Origin: Halorubrum sp. PV6 | Lineage (GTDB): Archaea; Halobacteriota; Halobacteria; Halobacteriales; Haloferacaceae | NCBI RefSeq assembly: GCF_003990725.2 | Contig: NZ_CP030064.1 | Location: forward strand, 1,488,001 to 1,552,000 | Direction: 5' to 3' | Length of the DNA: 64,000 bases | Shown: positions 1,515-31,443 of the stretch, one piece after another | Numbering within the stretch: position 1 is the first letter of the stretch | How the letters are laid out: every line of letters begins with the position of its first letter | Program-made: the position numbers and the translations under genes | Notes under the pieces: model-generated | The model's database searches: none | Told to the model about the DNA's origin: nothing | Seen by the model: the letters and a program-made list of their open reading frames with translations, nothing else

Positions 1515-1694
1515 ATGGTGGATGCGTTCGTCAGACTCGTCTGTCCAGAGTGTACCAAGGAGTGGCAAGCAAATCCCGCAGACCTACAGGAACTGCGCTC
1601 GAATTTTAGCTGTCCCGACTGTCACGCGACGCGTCGCCTGACGGAGTTCATGCGGACCGAACGCGATCTTGAAGCCGTCAAACAGTTCCAGTAG
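1515..1694 (+). CDS. Small zinc-ribbon-like protein
   Basis: A 59-residue protein with two CxxC knuckles (CPEC near residues 9-12 and CPDC near 34-37), so it probably binds one zinc ion. It resembles the short, conserved haloarchaeal DUF-type zinc proteins found throughout the class. The frame stays open upstream of 1515, but the ATG at 1515 begins the typical short form and gives MVDAFVRLVCPECTKEW. It follows the TFB gene on the same strand after about 90 bases, and an AT-rich TTTTTAACC element about 30 bases upstream is a plausible promoter. Its function is unknown; a nucleic-acid or protein-binding role is inference. Confidence 0.75.
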   Translation: MVDAFVRLVCPECTKEWQANPADLQELRSNFSCPDCHATRRLTEFMRTERDLEAVKQFQ

Positions 1695-1870
1695 CGCGGC
1701 GACCGCGCGTGAGTAAGACGCGTGAGGCCGACGACCCGCTGTTTTTACCAACCGTCAGTCGACCCGCCGTCACGAACGAGCGGATTCTTCCCGATCGTTA
1801 ACGCAAAAGTAGCCGTTTCCGCCCTCAGAACCGGGAACTCGTGGTTAGCCATGGTAACGTGGCTCAGGAT

Positions 1871-1882
1871 AATAATATAAAC
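1871..1882 (+). promoter_or_regulatory. TATA box of the UPF0058 gene
   Basis: AATAATATAAAC is centred about 30 bases before the ATG at 1908, the usual spacing for a near-leaderless haloarchaeal transcript. The remaining part of the 213-base gap from 1695 holds no gene that I can support. Confidence 0.6.
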
Positions 1883-1907
1883 CTCCGGTAGCAAAGAACG
1901 GGTACTC

Positions 1908-2141
1908 ATGAAGAAGCAGGAGCTCATCCATCTTCACGGCCTCCTCGCAGAAGTACGAAAACAGTGCGAGTTCTGGAACGAAGACATTGACCTGGACGCC
2001 TACGAAGAACTCGGCGTCAAACCGACATCGATTCACAAGTCGAAAACCGACCACAAAGCCGCTGTTTTTAAACTGACTGAAGGAATCACCGAGCCGATGG
2101 ACGAGTCCGAGTCGGAGCCGCTGGCCCCGACCGCAGACTGA
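1908..2141 (+). CDS. UPF0058 family protein
   Basis: A 77-residue protein opening with MKKQELIHLHGLLAEV, the hallmark of the archaeal UPF0058 family. These small, mostly helical proteins are widely conserved in euryarchaea. Two histidines and one cysteine in the first 25 residues have led to the suggestion that members bind metal, but no activity is established as far as I know. The C-terminus is the acidic, probably disordered tail usual in halophiles. It stands alone with its own TATA box and is followed by a convergent DNA glycosylase gene. Confidence 0.85.
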   Translation: MKKQELIHLHGLLAEVRKQCEFWNEDIDLDAYEELGVKPTSIHKSKTDHKAAVFKLTEGITEPMDESESEPLAPTAD

Positions 2142-2242
2142 GAACTTCGCCGCTGTCTCCCGCTGACCGTTACTCGCCGAGTGACGACGCCGTCGACCGC
2201 GTTGCGTGTGAGAACGCGGCGTGGACGGTCGCCGCACTCACT

Positions 2243-3169
2243 CTACTCGCCGCCGGCACGGAGATAGTAGAAGACGTACGTCTGAGCGTAGCCCGCAAAC
2301 TCACCCCCAAACCGCTCGCGGATCGCGCGCGACGTCTCGGTGTAGTTCCCGCCCTCACACTCCGGGTAGTACTCCTCTATCGTCGTTCGTATCCAGGTGT
2401 CGAGCGGGACGGCTTCGAGGAACCCGAGCGAGAACAACAGCACGCAGTCCGCGACCTTCTCGCCGACGCCCACGAACCGCGTCAGCGACTCGCGCGCCTC
2501 CTCGTAGGGGAGGTCCGCCGCCTCCGCGGGGTGTGCCTCGCCGGAGGCGACCATCTCCGCGCTCCGGCGGACGTACGGCGCGCGGTACCCTAAGGAGAGG
2601 TCGCGGAGTTCCTCTTCCGTCCGTGACGCGAGTTGATCCGGTGTCGGGAACGCACGGTACTCGTTCCCGTCGAGCGTTAGGGTGTCGCCGTAGGTCTCTC
2701 GGAGGCGGCGCTGCATCCCGTGGATTCGCGCGACGCGCATCTGTGCCGAGCAAATAAACGAGATGAGACACGGGAACACCGGATCGCGCGTGAGCCGCAT
2801 CCCCTCGTAGGCGTCGTACGCCCGTTCGAGGAGCGGGAGGTCGGGGGTCGCATCGAGGATCGCATCGAGGTCGTCGTCGAGGCGGAACAGGTGCGTCAAG
2901 AGGGGTACCACGTCGTCCGACGACTGCCAGTGAAGCGTCCCGTCGTGGACGCCGCCCGTTTGTCGTACCCTGACCGGCATCCGCTCGTCGGTCACGCCGG
3001 GTATCGGGTCGACGACGGTCTCGTACCACGCGTCGCCGCCGTGAGCGTGTAGGTCCTCGTACGTCTTGCCGTCGGCGCGATTCCAGAGGTAACTTTGGCC
3101 GCTCTCGACGGTCGCCTGCAGGTCGAACGGGCCGGCCAGATCCGCGATGTCGATCGCGCCGTGTTCCAT
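2243..3169 (-). CDS. ogg: OGG1-type 8-oxoguanine DNA glycosylase/AP lyase
   Basis: Base-excision repair enzyme of the HhH-GPD superfamily, 308 residues. The N-terminal part (about 1-110) matches the OGG1/AlkA-type antiparallel beta domain. The helix-hairpin-helix is GVGEKVADCVLLFSLGF, whose lysine is the expected Schiff-base nucleophile. It is followed by VPLDTWIR, whose aspartate is the conserved catalytic acid. Lys plus Asp in these positions favours a bifunctional OGG1-like glycosylase/lyase over a monofunctional AlkA. No iron-sulfur cysteine cluster is present. ATG at 3169 gives a normal length. The gene is divergent from the SRPBCC gene, with a gap of about 110 bases. Confidence 0.88.
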   Translation of the reverse strand: MEHGAIDIADLAGPFDLQATVESGQSYLWNRADGKTYEDLHAHGGDAWYETVVDPIPGVTDERMPVRVRQTGGVHDGTLHWQSSDDVVPLLTHLFRLDDDLDAILDATPDLPLLERAYDAYEGMRLTRDPVFPCLISFICSAQMRVARIHGMQRRLRETYGDTLTLDGNEYRAFPTPDQLASRTEEELRDLSLGYRAPYVRRSAEMVASGEAHPAEAADLPYEEARESLTRFVGVGEKVADCVLLFSLGFLEAVPLDTWIRTTIEEYYPECEGGNYTETSRAIRERFGGEFAGYAQTYVFYYLRAGGE

Positions 3170-3279
3170 TACGCTTCAAGCGGGGCCGCGAGCGTATGCG
3201 GGTTTCGGTGGGGACCGACGTGGGCTCCGCAAATCGCCGTCGAAGGGGGGTTTTTGCCCCTCGCCACCGTATAAATCGT

Positions 3280-3777
3280 ATGCCAACGTATCGCCGGACG
3301 ACCCGCGTACCAGCCCCGCTCGACGAGGTGTGGGCGTTTCACTCCACGATCGACGGCCTCCGTGAACTCACGCCCGCGTGGATGAACCTGCAGATTCCGG
3401 AGGTCAGAGGGCCAGACGGAGCGGTAGATCCGGAGACCCTCGTCGAGGGGTCGCGGATCGAGATGTCGATGCGGCCGTTCGGCGTCGGCCCGCGCCAACG
3501 CTGGACTTCGGTGATCACCGAGCGCGTTCCCGACGGAGAGCGTCAGCCGGACGGCCGCGCTCAGTTCGTCGACGAGATGTCCGGCGGGCCGTTCCGGACG
3601 TGGGAACACACACACGCGTTTTACGCCGACGGCGAGGAGACGCTGCTCGTCGATACCGTCGCGTACCGACTTCCGCTCGGTCCGCTGGGCGACGCGGCGG
3701 GACCGTTCGCGAAGGTCGGCTTCGAGGGTATGTTCCGAGACCGGCACCGCCGGACCGTCGATCGGTTCGAATCGTAG
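3280..3777 (+). CDS. SRPBCC (START/Bet v 1-like) family protein
   Basis: A 165-residue protein with the SRPBCC signature: an opening strand PTYRRTTRVPAPLDEVWAF, a central basic/acidic region and a C-terminal long helix (FAKVGFEGMFRDRHRRTVDR). The fold makes a hydrophobic ligand pocket; members act as cyclases, dehydrases or lipid carriers, and the ligand here is unknown. ATG 3280 was chosen because the conserved strand starts there; the frame is open further upstream but that part is not conserved-looking. A TATAAA-like stretch at about 3270-3276 overlaps the start and the true promoter is probably near the poly-T at 3251. Confidence 0.75.
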   Translation: MPTYRRTTRVPAPLDEVWAFHSTIDGLRELTPAWMNLQIPEVRGPDGAVDPETLVEGSRIEMSMRPFGVGPRQRWTSVITERVPDGERQPDGRAQFVDEMSGGPFRTWEHTHAFYADGEETLLVDTVAYRLPLGPLGDAAGPFAKVGFEGMFRDRHRRTVDRFES

Positions 3778-3807
3778 ATCCGCCGGCGGCGCCGGGACGG
3801 TCCGCCC

Positions 3808-5382
3808 TTAGGCCGGAGAAACCGCGGCTTCCGTCTCGAAGTCGAGTTCGAACACCGCTCCGTCGTCGTTCTTGACGTTGACGTCCCAGCCGTGTGCGTC
3901 CACGATCCGTTCGACGATAGCGAGGCCGATACCCGAACTGTCGGCGGTCGAAAACCCAGGGTCGAAAAGCGAGTCGCGTACGTCGGGCTCGATCCCTGGT
4001 CCGTCGTCGGCGACGTACATTCCGGCACCGGAGTCGCCGGCTCGCGTCCCGATCTCGATGGCGACGCTGGGGCCGACGTGGTCGATAGCGTTTCTGAAGA
4101 GGTTCTCGAACACCTGTCGGAAGCGGATCGGGTCGGCACGGACGCTTCCGATGTCGTCTTCGATCGTCAGGGTCGCGTCCGGCGCGCGGATCGTCTGCCA
4201 CGCCTCTTCGGCGACGGCGACGACCGAGGTCGGTTCGGTCTCACCGATCGTCTCCCCGCGTCTGGCTAACATGAGGAGGTTGTCGATAAGCGTCTCCATC
4301 CGCGTCACCGCACGATCCATCGGCTCGTACGTCGACGGCGACACCTCGCTTTCGACCATCTCCAGGTAGCCCGAGAGCACGTTGAGCGGGTTTCTGAGAT
4401 CGTGTGAGACGACGGCGCTGAACTGCTCGAGCTGTTCCGTCCGCCGACGCAGTTCCAGTCGACGGTCGTTGCGCGCGATGGTGTAGGCGATGAGATCGGC
4501 GAACGTCCGGTAGAGGGCGACCTCCTCGTCGGTCCACACGCGCCACGCGTCGGTCTCGAAGGCCAGCACTCCGACCAGATCCCAGTCGGCGACGAGAGGC
4601 ACGTGGACGGTCGCCGGCGGCTCGGTCTCCCGCTCGCGTGCCTCGCGACTCTCGGCGGCCGACCAGGGAGACGACTCCGCCGGGGACGACGAGTGAACGA
4701 CGTTCTCGAACGTCGAGAGGCGGTCCCCGTCCGGAAACTCGGCGAGTGACCGGACGTGAGGGTCACACCCGTCGGGACACCACGCGTACGACGGGTCGAA
4801 CGCCTCCACGTCGGAGTCACGGAGGTAACAGACGATCCGGTCCAGTTCGGCGGTTTCCCCGACGTTTTCCATCGTCCAGCTGATCTTCGTGTCCACCTCG
4901 TCGGACCGCGTGCTCATTAGCGTCGAGCCGGAGTCTAACAGGACTTCACGGAGTCTGTTTGCGTCGTCCGACCCGAACCGAACCTGTTCCGGTTCTATCA
5001 CCGCGGCTAACCGATCGGCGAGGGGGTCGCTCGCAGCGTCAGGGTCCGCGACGACATCGTCGGCGTCCGCCCGGACCGCGAGCCGGAACGATTCGACCGT
5101 AACGCCTTCAAGAAGAACGATGACTGGGATGCGGTCCGGTGTTTCTGTGAGACGATCGGCGACGGCCGAATCTGCGAGCGCACTAGCCGCTGTAACGATA
5201 CCGGCGGTTCCGGCAAGGAGCCGGTCGTCCGGGTCGTCTGCGGCGGTTAGTAGCCGTTCCGGCTCTACCGGATGGAAATCGGGAATCCGAGACCCATCCC
5301 ACGCCGCGTCTACCGCACGCGACACGCGCGCTCGCGTCTCCGGGTCGGCTCCGACGTAGGTTACAGCGGAGCGCCGATGCAT
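3808..5382 (-). CDS. Histidine kinase with receiver-like, GAF and HATPase domains
   Basis: A soluble sensor histidine kinase of 524 residues with no membrane segments. Domains in order: a receiver-like fold (about 1-130), a GAF sensor (about 140-310, with VHVPLVADWDLVGVLAFETD), a HisKA dimerisation domain with the phospho-acceptor H in AVVSHDLRNPLNVLSGYLE (about 350), and a HATPase_c domain with N box (LFRNAIDHV) and G boxes (DDGPGI, SSGIGLAIV). The receiver-like part lacks the usual phospho-accepting aspartate (see findings). Its signal and partner are unknown; no response regulator lies next to it, as is common in haloarchaea. ATG 5382 was used. Confidence 0.88.
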   Translation of the reverse strand: MHRRSAVTYVGADPETRARVSRAVDAAWDGSRIPDFHPVEPERLLTAADDPDDRLLAGTAGIVTAASALADSAVADRLTETPDRIPVIVLLEGVTVESFRLAVRADADDVVADPDAASDPLADRLAAVIEPEQVRFGSDDANRLREVLLDSGSTLMSTRSDEVDTKISWTMENVGETAELDRIVCYLRDSDVEAFDPSYAWCPDGCDPHVRSLAEFPDGDRLSTFENVVHSSSPAESSPWSAAESREARERETEPPATVHVPLVADWDLVGVLAFETDAWRVWTDEEVALYRTFADLIAYTIARNDRRLELRRRTEQLEQFSAVVSHDLRNPLNVLSGYLEMVESEVSPSTYEPMDRAVTRMETLIDNLLMLARRGETIGETEPTSVVAVAEEAWQTIRAPDATLTIEDDIGSVRADPIRFRQVFENLFRNAIDHVGPSVAIEIGTRAGDSGAGMYVADDGPGIEPDVRDSLFDPGFSTADSSGIGLAIVERIVDAHGWDVNVKNDDGAVFELDFETEAAVSPA

Positions 5383-5474
5383 ACAGAATCACTTCGCTGC
5401 CGCCATTTGAAGGTTCATCCGTAAATATCGGCTTCGAGAATTTCTCTCCCCTGAGGCGCCTCCTCGTCGACCGG

Positions 5475-28059: not shown

Positions 28060-31000
28060 ATGACCGACGATTCCGGCGCACCCGCTGCGGACGCCGAGGC
28101 CGGGGCCGATGCCGGCGACGCGGACGACCCGGCCTCTGACGCCGCGGAACCCGACAAAGGACTCTCGCTCGACCGCTTTCACGAGGCGTTAGAGGCCGAA
28201 GAGCGTCCGGTCGCGACCGCCAGCGAGGTCGCGAGACGGCTCGGGACGACGCAGGCGGCCGCGCGAGACGCACTCGGTGCGCTCGTCGACCGCGGCGACG
28301 TCGACCGACTGGACGTCGAGAGCGACCCGGTCGTCTTCTTCCCGAGGGACTGGGGCCGACTGGCGACCCGCGAGCGCGTGGTCGCGTTCCCGGATCGGCG
28401 CGAAATCGTCGTCGACCGCCCGACGCAGTTCACCCGCGCGCGGCTCTCCCAATTTGCCCACCTCGTCGACACCACGGGGACCGACCCCGGCACTCGCGGG
28501 TACCTCTATCGCATCAGACAGGAGGACGTGTGGGCGGCGCCCTTCGACGACGCCGACGCGCTGATCGCGAGCCTCCGGTCGGTGCTCCCCCGCCGGTTCA
28601 GCCACCTCGAAGAGTGGATCCGCGACCAGTGGCGCCGCGCGCACCGCTTCCGGTTATATACCCACGAGGACGGCTACGTCGTCTTGGAGGCCGCCGCGGA
28701 GAGTCTGATGGGGAACGTCGCCGACCAGCACCTCGACGACGACCACCTCCGGGCGCCCATCTCCGAGACGGAGGCGTGGGTCAACGAGGACGCCGTCGCC
28801 GGCGTCAAACGCGCCCTCTACGACGCCGGCTACCCGGTCGAGGACGACCGCGACCTCGACGTGGGCGACCCGGTCGACGTCGAGTTGACGACCGACCTCA
28901 GGGCCTATCAGGAGACGTGGGTCGAGACCTTCCTCGACGCGCGCTCCGGGGTGTACGTCGGGCCGCCCGGCTCCGGCAAGACCGTCGCCGCCATCGCCAC
29001 CATCGCCGCGGTCGGCGGCGAGACCTTGATTCTCGTCCCCTCCCGCGAACTCGCGGGCCAGTGGCGCGAGGAACTCCTCGACCACTCGACGGTCGACCCG
29101 GCCGACATCGGCGAGTACCACGGCGGACAGAAGGATATCCGACCGATCACGATCGCGACCTACCAGATCGCCGGGATGGACCGCCATCGCGCGCTGTTCG
29201 ACTCGCGGAAGTGGGGGTTGATCTGCTTCGACGAGTGTCTGACCGGAGACACTATCGTTGAAACCCCGTCTGGAAGGACGACGTTCGATGAACTCGATGA
29301 GAGATATGAGCTGGAGGATGGGTGGACGACAGATATCGATCTCTCGGTCCGTACTTTCAACCGGGAGCGTGGCACGTACCGATTTACCCCCATCACGGGT
29401 ATTTATAAATCGACGGCGCCGGTCGAACGGATCGAAACACGTCAGGGATACCCGATAACGGCGACTCCGAGGCACACTCACTTCGTTTTCGACCCCGGCT
29501 CTGCACGTATCTCGAAGCAAAAAGGTGTCTCTGAGGGTGATTTCATTGTAAGGCCGCAAACAGAGTCGAAGAAGTATACGGAGACAAACGCGTTGAGTCT
29601 TGCATCTGCCGAACTGCTCGGCTGGTTCCTCGGAGACGGTCACCGAGATCGTCACGGCCACGCAAAGTTCTCTTTCGCACGGAAAAAGCGGGAACAGATC
29701 AGTATACTCGAAGATCTGTGTAACCGGATCGAACTCGACTACTCGGTGTTTGAGAACAGTAGAGGTGATCTCACGTTGTGGTCGAAACGCTTTGCAGATA
29801 CACTTCCGTGGGACATCCCTTCCGGGAGTAAGGCGGAGAGAGTGACTGTTCCGCGGGACGCATACGGATGGCACCCAGACCAAGTCGGCGCGCTGTTGAG
29901 GGGACTATTCGATGCCGAGGGCTCTGTTGACAAGAAGGGACGAATACAGCTTAACACGATCTCAGAGCGACTCGCGAAGGACGTCGTATTGCTTCTACAG
30001 CACCTCAGAATCCCGTCGAAATGTCTCAACCTTGACCGAGACTCTCCGCACAGCGATCTGTTTCGGATACTGATCGCCTCGCGGTACGGGGTGTTATTCT
30101 CTGAGAAAGTCGGATTCAGATTACAGTATAAATCGGAGCGGATATCGGTTGGCAAGACACCTGCAACGGGGGTTCCCGTCGGAACGTATCTAAAACGGAT
30201 CAAAGACGACGTGGAACTTTCGAATGAACAGATCGCAGATATGACCGACGTCTCCAAACAAACGATCGGTGATGTCATTCGCGGGAAGAACCGTTTGGGA
30301 CAGCAACATCTGAGTTCCCTCGCTGAGGGGCTTCGAAAATACGCACAAACCGATCCAATCTCAATCAATGCGATGCGTGAAGATAGTAACATCACGTACG
30401 CGGAAATCGGCGACAAACTAGATGTCTCAACCAGTCATGCGTATACACTGGTTGGCCGAGGAAATGAGCGAACGGTGAAAGTGATCGGTGAACGCGATCG
30501 GGACTGTCGGAGAAAGGCAGCCGCGCATGCAGATCGGTTGGATCGGCTCGCAGATTTACAACTTGTCGAAGTCACATCGGTCACGAAAAAAGGCGTTGAG
30601 ACGGTGTATGACTTCGAGACACGGGATCACACGTTCGTCGCAGATGGCTATCTAACGCACAACTGCCACCACATCACGGCGCCGGTCTTCTCCAGATCTG
30701 CCGAGTTACAGACCAGACACCGCCTCGGCCTCTCGGCCACGCCGGTCCGCGAGACCGGCAGCGAGGAGGAGATATACACCCTGATCGGCCGACCGATCGG
30801 CGCCGACTGGGACGAACTCTTCGACGCCGGCTTCGTGCAAGAACCGGAAGTCGAGATCCGGTACGTCCCGTGGCGCGACGAGATGGCTCGCAACGAGTAC
30901 GCCAGCGCCGACGGGCGCGAGCGACGCCGGCTCGCGGCCGAGAACCCCGCGAAGATCGAGGAGATCCGGTACCTGCTCGCCGCCCACCGCGACAAGAAGG

Positions 31001-31443
31001 CGCTCGTCTTCATCGAGTATCTCGATCAGGGGGAGGCCATCGCCGACGCGCTCGGCGTCCCGTTTATAAGCGGGGAGACGCCGCACCACGAGCGCGCGGC
31101 GTTGTTCCGACAGTTCCGCGACGACGGCGCGGACGCCGGACCCAACGACGCGGACGCCGGCCCCGACGGAAAGGGGAGCGGAGTCGACACAATCGTCGTC
31201 TCGCGCGTCGGCGACGAGGGGATCGACCTGCCGAACGCCGAGGTCGCGATCGTCGCCAGCGGGCTCGGCGGCTCGCGCCGCCAGGGCTCACAGCGCGCAG
31301 GCCGCACCATGCGACCGTCCGGCTCGGCGCTCGTGTACGTCCTCGCGACCCGCGGGTCGAGCGAGGAGGACTTCGCGCAGCGACAGATGCGACACCTCGC
31401 ACGCAAGGGGATCCGGGTGCGAGAGACGAACGTCGCGGAGTGA
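28060..31443 (+). CDS. rad25: XPB/Rad25-type DNA helicase with in-frame intein
   Basis: Superfamily 2 helicase/translocase (XPB relative). The 1127-residue precursor would splice to a 651-residue enzyme. The N-terminal part has a winged-helix-like region (ASEVARRLGTTQAAARDALG) and a damage-recognition-like region. Walker A is VGPPGSGKTVAAI (about 305). The DExH box is FDE/CHHITA, split by the intein after the E. The C-terminal RecA domain has LVFIEYLDQGEAIADALGVP and the motif VI region GSRRQGSQRAGRTMR. An acidic insertion rich in D, A and G (about 1020-1040) is an ordinary haloarchaeal loop. Role in DNA repair or transcription-coupled processes is inferred from XPB. Confidence 0.93.
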   Translation: MTDDSGAPAADAEAGADAGDADDPASDAAEPDKGLSLDRFHEALEAEERPVATASEVARRLGTTQAAARDALGALVDRGDVDRLDVESDPVVFFPRDWGRLATRERVVAFPDRREIVVDRPTQFTRARLSQFAHLVDTTGTDPGTRGYLYRIRQEDVWAAPFDDADALIASLRSVLPRRFSHLEEWIRDQWRRAHRFRLYTHEDGYVVLEAAAESLMGNVADQHLDDDHLRAPISETEAWVNEDAVAGVKRALYDAGYPVEDDRDLDVGDPVDVELTTDLRAYQETWVETFLDARSGVYVGPPGSGKTVAAIATIAAVGGETLILVPSRELAGQWREELLDHSTVDPADIGEYHGGQKDIRPITIATYQIAGMDRHRALFDSRKWGLICFDECLTGDTIVETPSGRTTFDELDERYELEDGWTTDIDLSVRTFNRERGTYRFTPITGIYKSTAPVERIETRQGYPITATPRHTHFVFDPGSARISKQKGVSEGDFIVRPQTESKKYTETNALSLASAELLGWFLGDGHRDRHGHAKFSFARKKREQISILEDLCNRIELDYSVFENSRGDLTLWSKRFADTLPWDIPSGSKAERVTVPRDAYGWHPDQVGALLRGLFDAEGSVDKKGRIQLNTISERLAKDVVLLLQHLRIPSKCLNLDRDSPHSDLFRILIASRYGVLFSEKVGFRLQYKSERISVGKTPATGVPVGTYLKRIKDDVELSNEQIADMTDVSKQTIGDVIRGKNRLGQQHLSSLAEGLRKYAQTDPISINAMREDSNITYAEIGDKLDVSTSHAYTLVGRGNERTVKVIGERDRDCRRKAAAHADRLDRLADLQLVEVTSVTKKGVETVYDFETRDHTFVADGYLTHNCHHITAPVFSRSAELQTRHRLGLSATPVRETGSEEEIYTLIGRPIGADWDELFDAGFVQEPEVEIRYVPWRDEMARNEYASADGRERRRLAAENPAKIEEIRYLLAAHRDKKALVFIEYLDQGEAIADALGVPFISGETPHHERAALFRQFRDDGADAGPNDADAGPDGKGSGVDTIVVSRVGDEGIDLPNAEVAIVASGLGGSRRQGSQRAGRTMRPSGSALVYVLATRGSSEEDFAQRQMRHLARKGIRVRETNVAE
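29236..30663 (+). mobile_element. Intein with DOD homing endonuclease and HTH
   Basis: A 476-residue protein-splicing element at precursor residues 393-868. It begins with C in CLTGDTIVETPSG (block A), has block B TATPRHTHF, two LAGLIDADG motifs (LLGWFLGDGHRD and LLRGLFDAEGSVD), a helix-turn-helix insert (about 30211-30345) and a C-terminal VYDFETRDHTFVADGYLTHN block ending in HN. The +1 residue is the Cys of CHH. All splicing residues are present, so it should be active. Its base composition is visibly less GC-rich than the flanking extein codons, consistent with lateral spread by homing. Confidence 0.95.

Follow-up and report, generated by a model that had tools for sequence, protein, structure and literature searches.

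The window analyzed here is a 64,000 nt stretch from Halorubrum sp. PV6 (positions 1,488,001–1,552,000 of contig NZ_CP030064.1), and all coordinates refer to it unless otherwise indicated. It contains a gene for a Rad25/XPB-like helicase whose coding sequence harbors, within helicase motif II, an active-looking intein. The following features, all on the + strand, are considered:

28060–31443, +, rad25/XPB-like helicase gene with intein, coding for a precursor of 1127 aa and a predicted spliced product of 651 aa (open reading frame, XPB/rad25 profiles)
28060–29235, +, N-extein, 392 aa, with the N-terminal region, motif I (GPPGSGKT) and the 'DE' of motif II
29236–30663, +, intein, 476 aa, precursor residues 393–868 (C1 ... 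H475-N476), starting with CLTGDT and ending in LTHN, with a G+C content of 0.53 versus 0.70 in the extein
29236–29565, +, N-terminal splicing region with block A (C1) and block B (T77xxH80), delimited by TIGR01445 (residues 1–81) and invariant residues
29593–30165, +, LAGLIDADG homing endonuclease domain (PF14528, alignment to PI-PfuI 1dq3, fold match, dN/dS of 0.09–0.20)
30181–30441, +, accessory region with two helix-turn-helix modules (Pfam; predicted helices with pLDDT mostly 70–90)
30553–30663, +, C-terminal splicing region with block F (D459, H465) and block G (H475, N476), delimited by TIGR01443 and invariant residues
30664–31443, +, C-extein, 259 aa, with the remainder of motif II, motif III (SAT) and the helicase C-terminal domain ERCC3_RAD25_C
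30664–30666, +, codon TGC for the +1 Cys, third residue of motif II once spliced (DECH), Cys in 11/11 carriers
30667–30714, +, 48-bp tract downstream of the insertion site, the substitution and mosaic hotspot of the gene in Halorubrum

A preliminary description of this DNA had placed an intein at 29236–30663 within a Rad25/XPB helicase, and these coordinates proved exact: the element sits between E392 and C869 of the precursor, the next residue being a Cys, and splits motif II within an open frame. The joined exteins add up to 651 aa, with a junction reading ...ICFDE-CHHITAP..., and the host protein matches Pfam ERCC3_RAD25_C (above cut-off) and ResIII. The spliced sequence yields a single continuous alignment of 350 bits to the XPB model NF045503, which upholds the name Rad25/XPB for the family but not at the equivalog level, for which the cut-off is 610 bits; against TIGR00603 (rad25) it reaches 154.8 bits, with a cut-off of 328.7. 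By these scores, which lie below the cut-offs of both models, the helicase is therefore a divergent haloarchaeal member of the Rad25/XPB family, not a close XPB. A shorter, intein-free rad25 paralogue occurs in the same genome as a 482-aa open frame, and relatives in public records come from H. trapanicum, H. salsamenti and H. halophilum. Because motif II is split by the intein, the precursor is probably inactive as a helicase, and it is reasonable to assume that it could not act as one before splicing.

The anatomy of the element is that of a full-length class-1 intein with a LAGLIDADG endonuclease, apparently in working order. Pfam models Intein_splicing and LAGLIDADG_3, as well as NCBIfam intein_Nterm (TIGR01445), match above their cut-offs. 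The diagnostic motifs listed in the preliminary description are all present, namely the block A Cys, the TxxH of block B (T77-P-R-H80), two LAGLIDADG motifs (LLGWFLGDG, with D134, and LLRGLFDAEG, with D226/E228) and the terminal HN/C, and their key residues are invariant in 11 full-length homologs occupying the same rad25 codon boundary, the copy from the window included. Residues C1, T77, H80, D134, D226, E228, D459, H465, H475, and N476 are identical throughout this set, with all the splicing residues and LAGLIDADG acids kept in 11/11; the reading frame is open and PF14528 is found in every copy, and the other copies are 40–88% identical to that of the window. Overlooked in the preliminary description were two helix-turn-helix modules spanning approximately intein residues 316–402, an HTH_3 at 320–367, which Pfam detects in 11/11 copies, and an HTH_24/AsnC-type module at 377–400.

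In pairwise comparisons of the five Halorubrum copies, dN/dS was 0.09–0.20 for the endonuclease and 0.08–0.19 for the helix-turn-helix region, and values ranged from 0.04 to 0.20 across all intein domains, with the exception of 0.47 for the short C-terminal region in one pair; by these ratios, the endonuclease and the helix-turn-helix region are under purifying selection. The G+C content of these five inteins is 0.52–0.54 (0.52–0.60 in third positions) versus 0.70–0.72 (0.92–0.94) in the flanking exteins, and we did not use intein versus extein dS as a clock because of this difference in third positions (around 0.55 and 0.93, respectively). It was also observed that the G+C of the five inteins (the window and L002–L005) stays near 0.53 despite protein differences of up to 20%, escaping the GC pressure of the host.

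As to its type, this is an ordinary intein of class 1 equipped with a LAGLIDADG endonuclease, a kind of element already known. Its predicted structure (mean pLDDT of 66 and pTM of 0.37), used here as domain-level support, has as best PDB matches the TliVMA intein, PI-PfuI, PI-SceI, and I-DmoI. The first of these, from Thermococcus litoralis (PDB 7qss/7qsu), likewise combines HINT and LAGLIDADG domains with an accessory domain resembling a helix-turn-helix (PMC8966425); however, it resides in a V-ATPase gene, whereas the intein in rad25 has two helix-turn-helix modules, each with its own Pfam family (HTH_3 and HTH_24). The best PDB sequence match over the endonuclease was PI-PfuI (1dq3) from Pyrococcus furiosus, with both acidic residues aligned, although identity is about 20% and the host gene and accessory domain are different. 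Inteins with a patchy distribution and horizontal movement have been described from this same class in genes for replication and repair, a table of halobacterial inteins (Soucy et al., 2014; PMC4071816) comprising 24 sites in 13 genes. No gene in that table goes by the name of rad25 or XPB, one of its entries being a 'helicase-b'. The preliminary description had assumed that rad25 inteins were already reported in haloarchaea; we found none for rad25/XPB in the literature searched, although the site may be on record elsewhere.

The intein is carried by 11 of 391 haloarchaeal genomes, belonging to four families by search codes, and an orthologue of the rad25 gene is present in nearly all of the remaining ones. 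Occupied and precisely empty alleles coexist within a single genus, since only five out of 52 Halorubrum species contain the intein, while the gene is uninterrupted at the site in 46 and fragmented in one. In an extein tree of 51 Halorubrum sequences, constructed with the site codon excluded, carriers occupy two well-supported regions amid species with DEAH and DEVH. The intein label needs five changes on this tree, at least two of them forced by well-supported branches, with gains and losses being indistinguishable, and the Cys state needs ten. The near relatives of carriers mostly have DEAH or DEVH, as in the pairs L004/L060 (DEVH) and L005/L061 (DEAH); a carrier next to such a relative implies either that the invasion brought the Cys codon or that the intein was lost and the codon later replaced. 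Within Halorubrum, the two subgroups of the intein correspond to the two groups of exteins, and dS is in most cases as high in the intein as in the extein or higher, with no very recent transfer visible among the five species.

The same intein was also found, at the same site, in a contig assigned by binning to Candidatus Nanohalarchaeota (L071, positions 1658–4777), which has a uniform G+C content of 0.46 and an adjoining TIP49 gene. The extein of L071 is 37–43% identical to full-length haloarchaeal exteins, on a branch of 3.9 changes per site, versus 41–48% identity to the haloarchaeal copies and 0.81 changes per site for its intein. Since inteins in this set otherwise diverge faster than exteins, the opposite pattern in this one MAG contig suggests that the intein moved between haloarchaeal and nanohaloarchaeal lineages. 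A search of viral contigs for relatives of the intein gave seven pattern matches, none of which was confirmed.

Several other inteins and rad25 copies were encountered in the survey. Genome G123 (L011 and L272) has an uninterrupted rad25 orthologue, 65% to the extein of the window, and a second, divergent copy (about 51%) bearing the intein, which is the sole carrier in which intein and gene have the same G+C content. A second intein site exists in motif III of the same rad25 gene, with the pattern RLGL-[SV(D/E/H)G(D/E)T ... HN]-SATP and Ser at both position 1 and +1, and is occupied in eight of the 391 genomes (loci L069, L276, L278, L279, L282, L283, L284, and L287); Halosegnis rubeus (L069; ORF holding the match at 4001–5425) contains both inteins in a single frame of 1596 residues. 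Lastly, the genome of strain PV6 has other inteins outside of the window (G000:C1:2544426-2547965 and G000:C1:165436-166674), apparently two in a frame of 1844 residues and one in a frame of 1784 residues.

Cys869 is the +1 nucleophile and would become position 393 of the spliced helicase, the third residue of motif II. Counts from the alignment, with DECQ-type alleles included, give Cys at this position in 11/11 carriers and in 29 of 156 intein-free genes, the other 127 having Ala or Val. The numbers of Ala, Val and Cys are 32, 5, and 9 in intein-free genes from Halorubrum and 25, 61, and 17 in those from other genera, plus 2, 2, and 3 in genes with another intein further on. The association of Cys with the intein has a Fisher p of 4.6e-8 for the class and 8.5e-4 for the genus, in a test that ignores relatedness. 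The term 'DECH box' used in the preliminary description is hence adequate for carriers but not for the usual state of the helicase, which is DEAH or DEVH. Because Ala or Val occupies the position in most intein-free orthologues, the helicase does not need the +1 Cys. This residue is set by splicing chemistry, leaving no ground on which to regard it as a redox sensor of the helicase. Besides, the only nearby Cys able to trap C1 in a disulfide is Cys389, at position -4, which 50 of 51 Halorubrum alleles have regardless of the intein and which carriers of other genera lack; in the alleles compared, it goes with the genus Halorubrum and not with the intein. A redox gate was set aside after these two surveys.

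The sequence just downstream of the insertion site is the most variable of the gene in Halorubrum. With the tract region left out of the tree, the number of changes assigned to the codons peaked, over the 1350 bp examined, in the 45-bp windows that start at the site and just after it (271–293, the mean being 131 and the sd 37). So as to rule out a relaxation of protein constraint, we chose an amino-acid-matched scan of synonymous third-position changes, the reference for each codon being the mean for its amino acid in the remainder of the gene. In the first 16 codons, counted downstream from the site, synonymous change was 2.13 times the expected value, the highest among 434 windows, and 2.04 times when considering only intein-free alleles; both the 20 codons upstream and codons 16–30 downstream were at 0.9–1.1 times the expected value. 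The corresponding tree-free pairwise ratio was 1.71 for this gene in Halorubrum; in 100 loci from other genera it was 0.95–1.02, and a similar span of the Halorubrum rad25 paralogue (40 loci) gave 0.89.

The tract is also a mosaic. Its pairwise distances hardly correlate with those of the gene (rho of 0.07, the median window having 0.47). Carriers L001 and L005, from different clades, are identical in the 26 bases past the +1 codon and 85.8% identical in the rest, and L005 is only 77% identical to its near empty relative L061 in this stretch, versus 93% elsewhere; carrier L004 lacks the shared stretch. Additionally, four related empty alleles with DEAH (L035, L037, L040, and L042) contain an A+T-rich patch, with a G+C content of 0.44–0.52 in genes of 0.68–0.70, which comprises the 48 bp after the DEAH codons and starts at the empty intein site. 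A search for its donor in the 391 genomes retrieved only the same Halorubrum clade and ordinary homologs. Excluding these four alleles, the excess drops to 1.4–1.6 times, though the window keeps first place in the tree-based synonymous scan.

Altogether, we believe that this is probably a mobile, most likely selfish, homing intein, which would splice from the rad25 product and spread by homing with co-conversion of its flank. The anatomy, the invariant residues, purifying selection, the patchy distribution with carriers in separate clades, the rule of a Cys at +1 and the local hotspot, confined to this gene and genus, are read directly from the sequences; splicing, cleavage and the homing origin of the hotspot are deduced from them. 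During splicing, C1 would attack, the +1 Cys would take the N-extein and N476 would cyclise, yielding a continuous helicase of 651 residues with a DECH motif II. The endonuclease, probably assisted by the C-terminal helix-turn-helix modules, would cut rad25 alleles that lack the intein at the codons for motif II, and repair from an intein-bearing template would insert the intein while co-converting a short flank downstream, +1 codon included. Since Ala and Val cannot act in splicing, this flank must bring a TGY codon to a DEAH or DEVH recipient, and co-conversion would thus turn its motif II into the DECH required for splicing. Loss of the intein, or repair of the cut from another empty allele, would leave or import a new flank, reshuffling the tract among intein-free genes, and we infer that recurrent homing left the hotspot as its footprint. 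No gain for the host helicase is visible, and we regard the intein as most likely parasitic. We tentatively extend this scheme to propose that the homing cycle may have repeatedly rewritten motif II and approximately 48 bp across the genus, intein-free species included, leaving a one-sided synonymous mosaic tract; that DEAH and DEVH would be splicing-incompatible, and hence resistant, states; and that the intein would have crossed between haloarchaea and a nanohaloarchaeon.

The hotspot could be unrelated to homing, and either reflect a recombination or mutation hotspot in the linker between motifs II and III of Halorubrum or result from escape from the endonuclease by point mutation, both being compatible with a working intein. 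We regard this as unlikely, though it deserves serious attention: the linker is variable also at the protein level, in first and second codon positions, and carriers are a minority. The hotspot is also one-sided, with an upstream ratio of about 1.0–1.1, which counts against homing because co-conversion could run both ways, as do the drop of the excess without the four A+T-rich alleles and the lack of the shared 26 bases in L004. Moreover, given a single hotspot and some 27 independent windows, we estimate at a few percent the likelihood that the site coincides by chance with the top window. Conversely, the excess is synonymous, begins at the insertion codon and is absent from other genera and from the paralogue, and the tracts conflict with the gene tree and are common to separate clades, which points to import rather than to point mutation. 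A domesticated or degenerating intein, still splicing but with an endonuclease that no longer cuts and vertically inherited in Halorubrum, would agree with the correspondence between intein and extein groups and with the dS values in this genus. Nevertheless, it is improbable in view of the invariance of both LAGLIDADG acids, the low dN/dS of the endonuclease, the scatter of carriers amid empty species, and the presence of the same intein in other families and in the nanohaloarchaeal contig.

It is also conceivable that the intein works as a conditional-splicing switch, with salt or redox conditions controlling its excision and gating a repair helicase, in line with the proposal in the preliminary description that Cys393 and Cys869 could gate activity. 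Some haloarchaeal inteins show salt-dependent splicing. Likewise, splicing of DnaB inteins is oxidant-sensitive (PMC6195587, PMC8557812), and such a switch would be favored by the probable inactivity of a precursor with a split motif II and by the Cys at -4 in Halorubrum. However, the patchy occupancy, in 11 of 391 genomes, speaks against a conserved regulatory role and the tree demands repeated gain or loss; the Cys at -4 is missing from carriers of other genera and present in empty alleles, and 127 of the 156 intein-free orthologues have Ala or Val at +1. Furthermore, Haloferax volcanii showed no growth defect after losing all four of its rad25 paralogues (PMC11276520). We therefore find a switch very improbable, and the gating through Cys393 and Cys869 is not sustained.

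The homing reading has a close parallel in the haloarchaeal MCM-d (cdc21) intein, in which occupied sites have Ser at +1 and empty sites mostly Pro, and for which a requirement of flank co-conversion for invasion was proposed (PMC10643990). In both genes, occupied sites always have the +1 residue required for splicing and most empty sites have another. In contrast to MCM-d, the residues in rad25 are Cys versus Ala/Val, the site is within helicase motif II, and the putatively converted flank shows up as a hotspot of synonymous change that intein-free alleles display as well. Our results would thus add a second, independent co-conversion site, located in a helicase motif, together with a quantitative trace in intein-free alleles that is backed by genus and paralogue controls. 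They also indicate that a parasite, and not enzyme function, can dictate which residue comes third in helicase motif II (DEAH/DEVH/DECH), and caution against reading a Cys in motif II as a redox sensor. The footprint of homing would be measurable without the intein being present and, if this is general, genomes without the intein could serve to count past invasions; should it hold at other intein sites, the escape of hosts through changes in the +1 residue would become directly testable.
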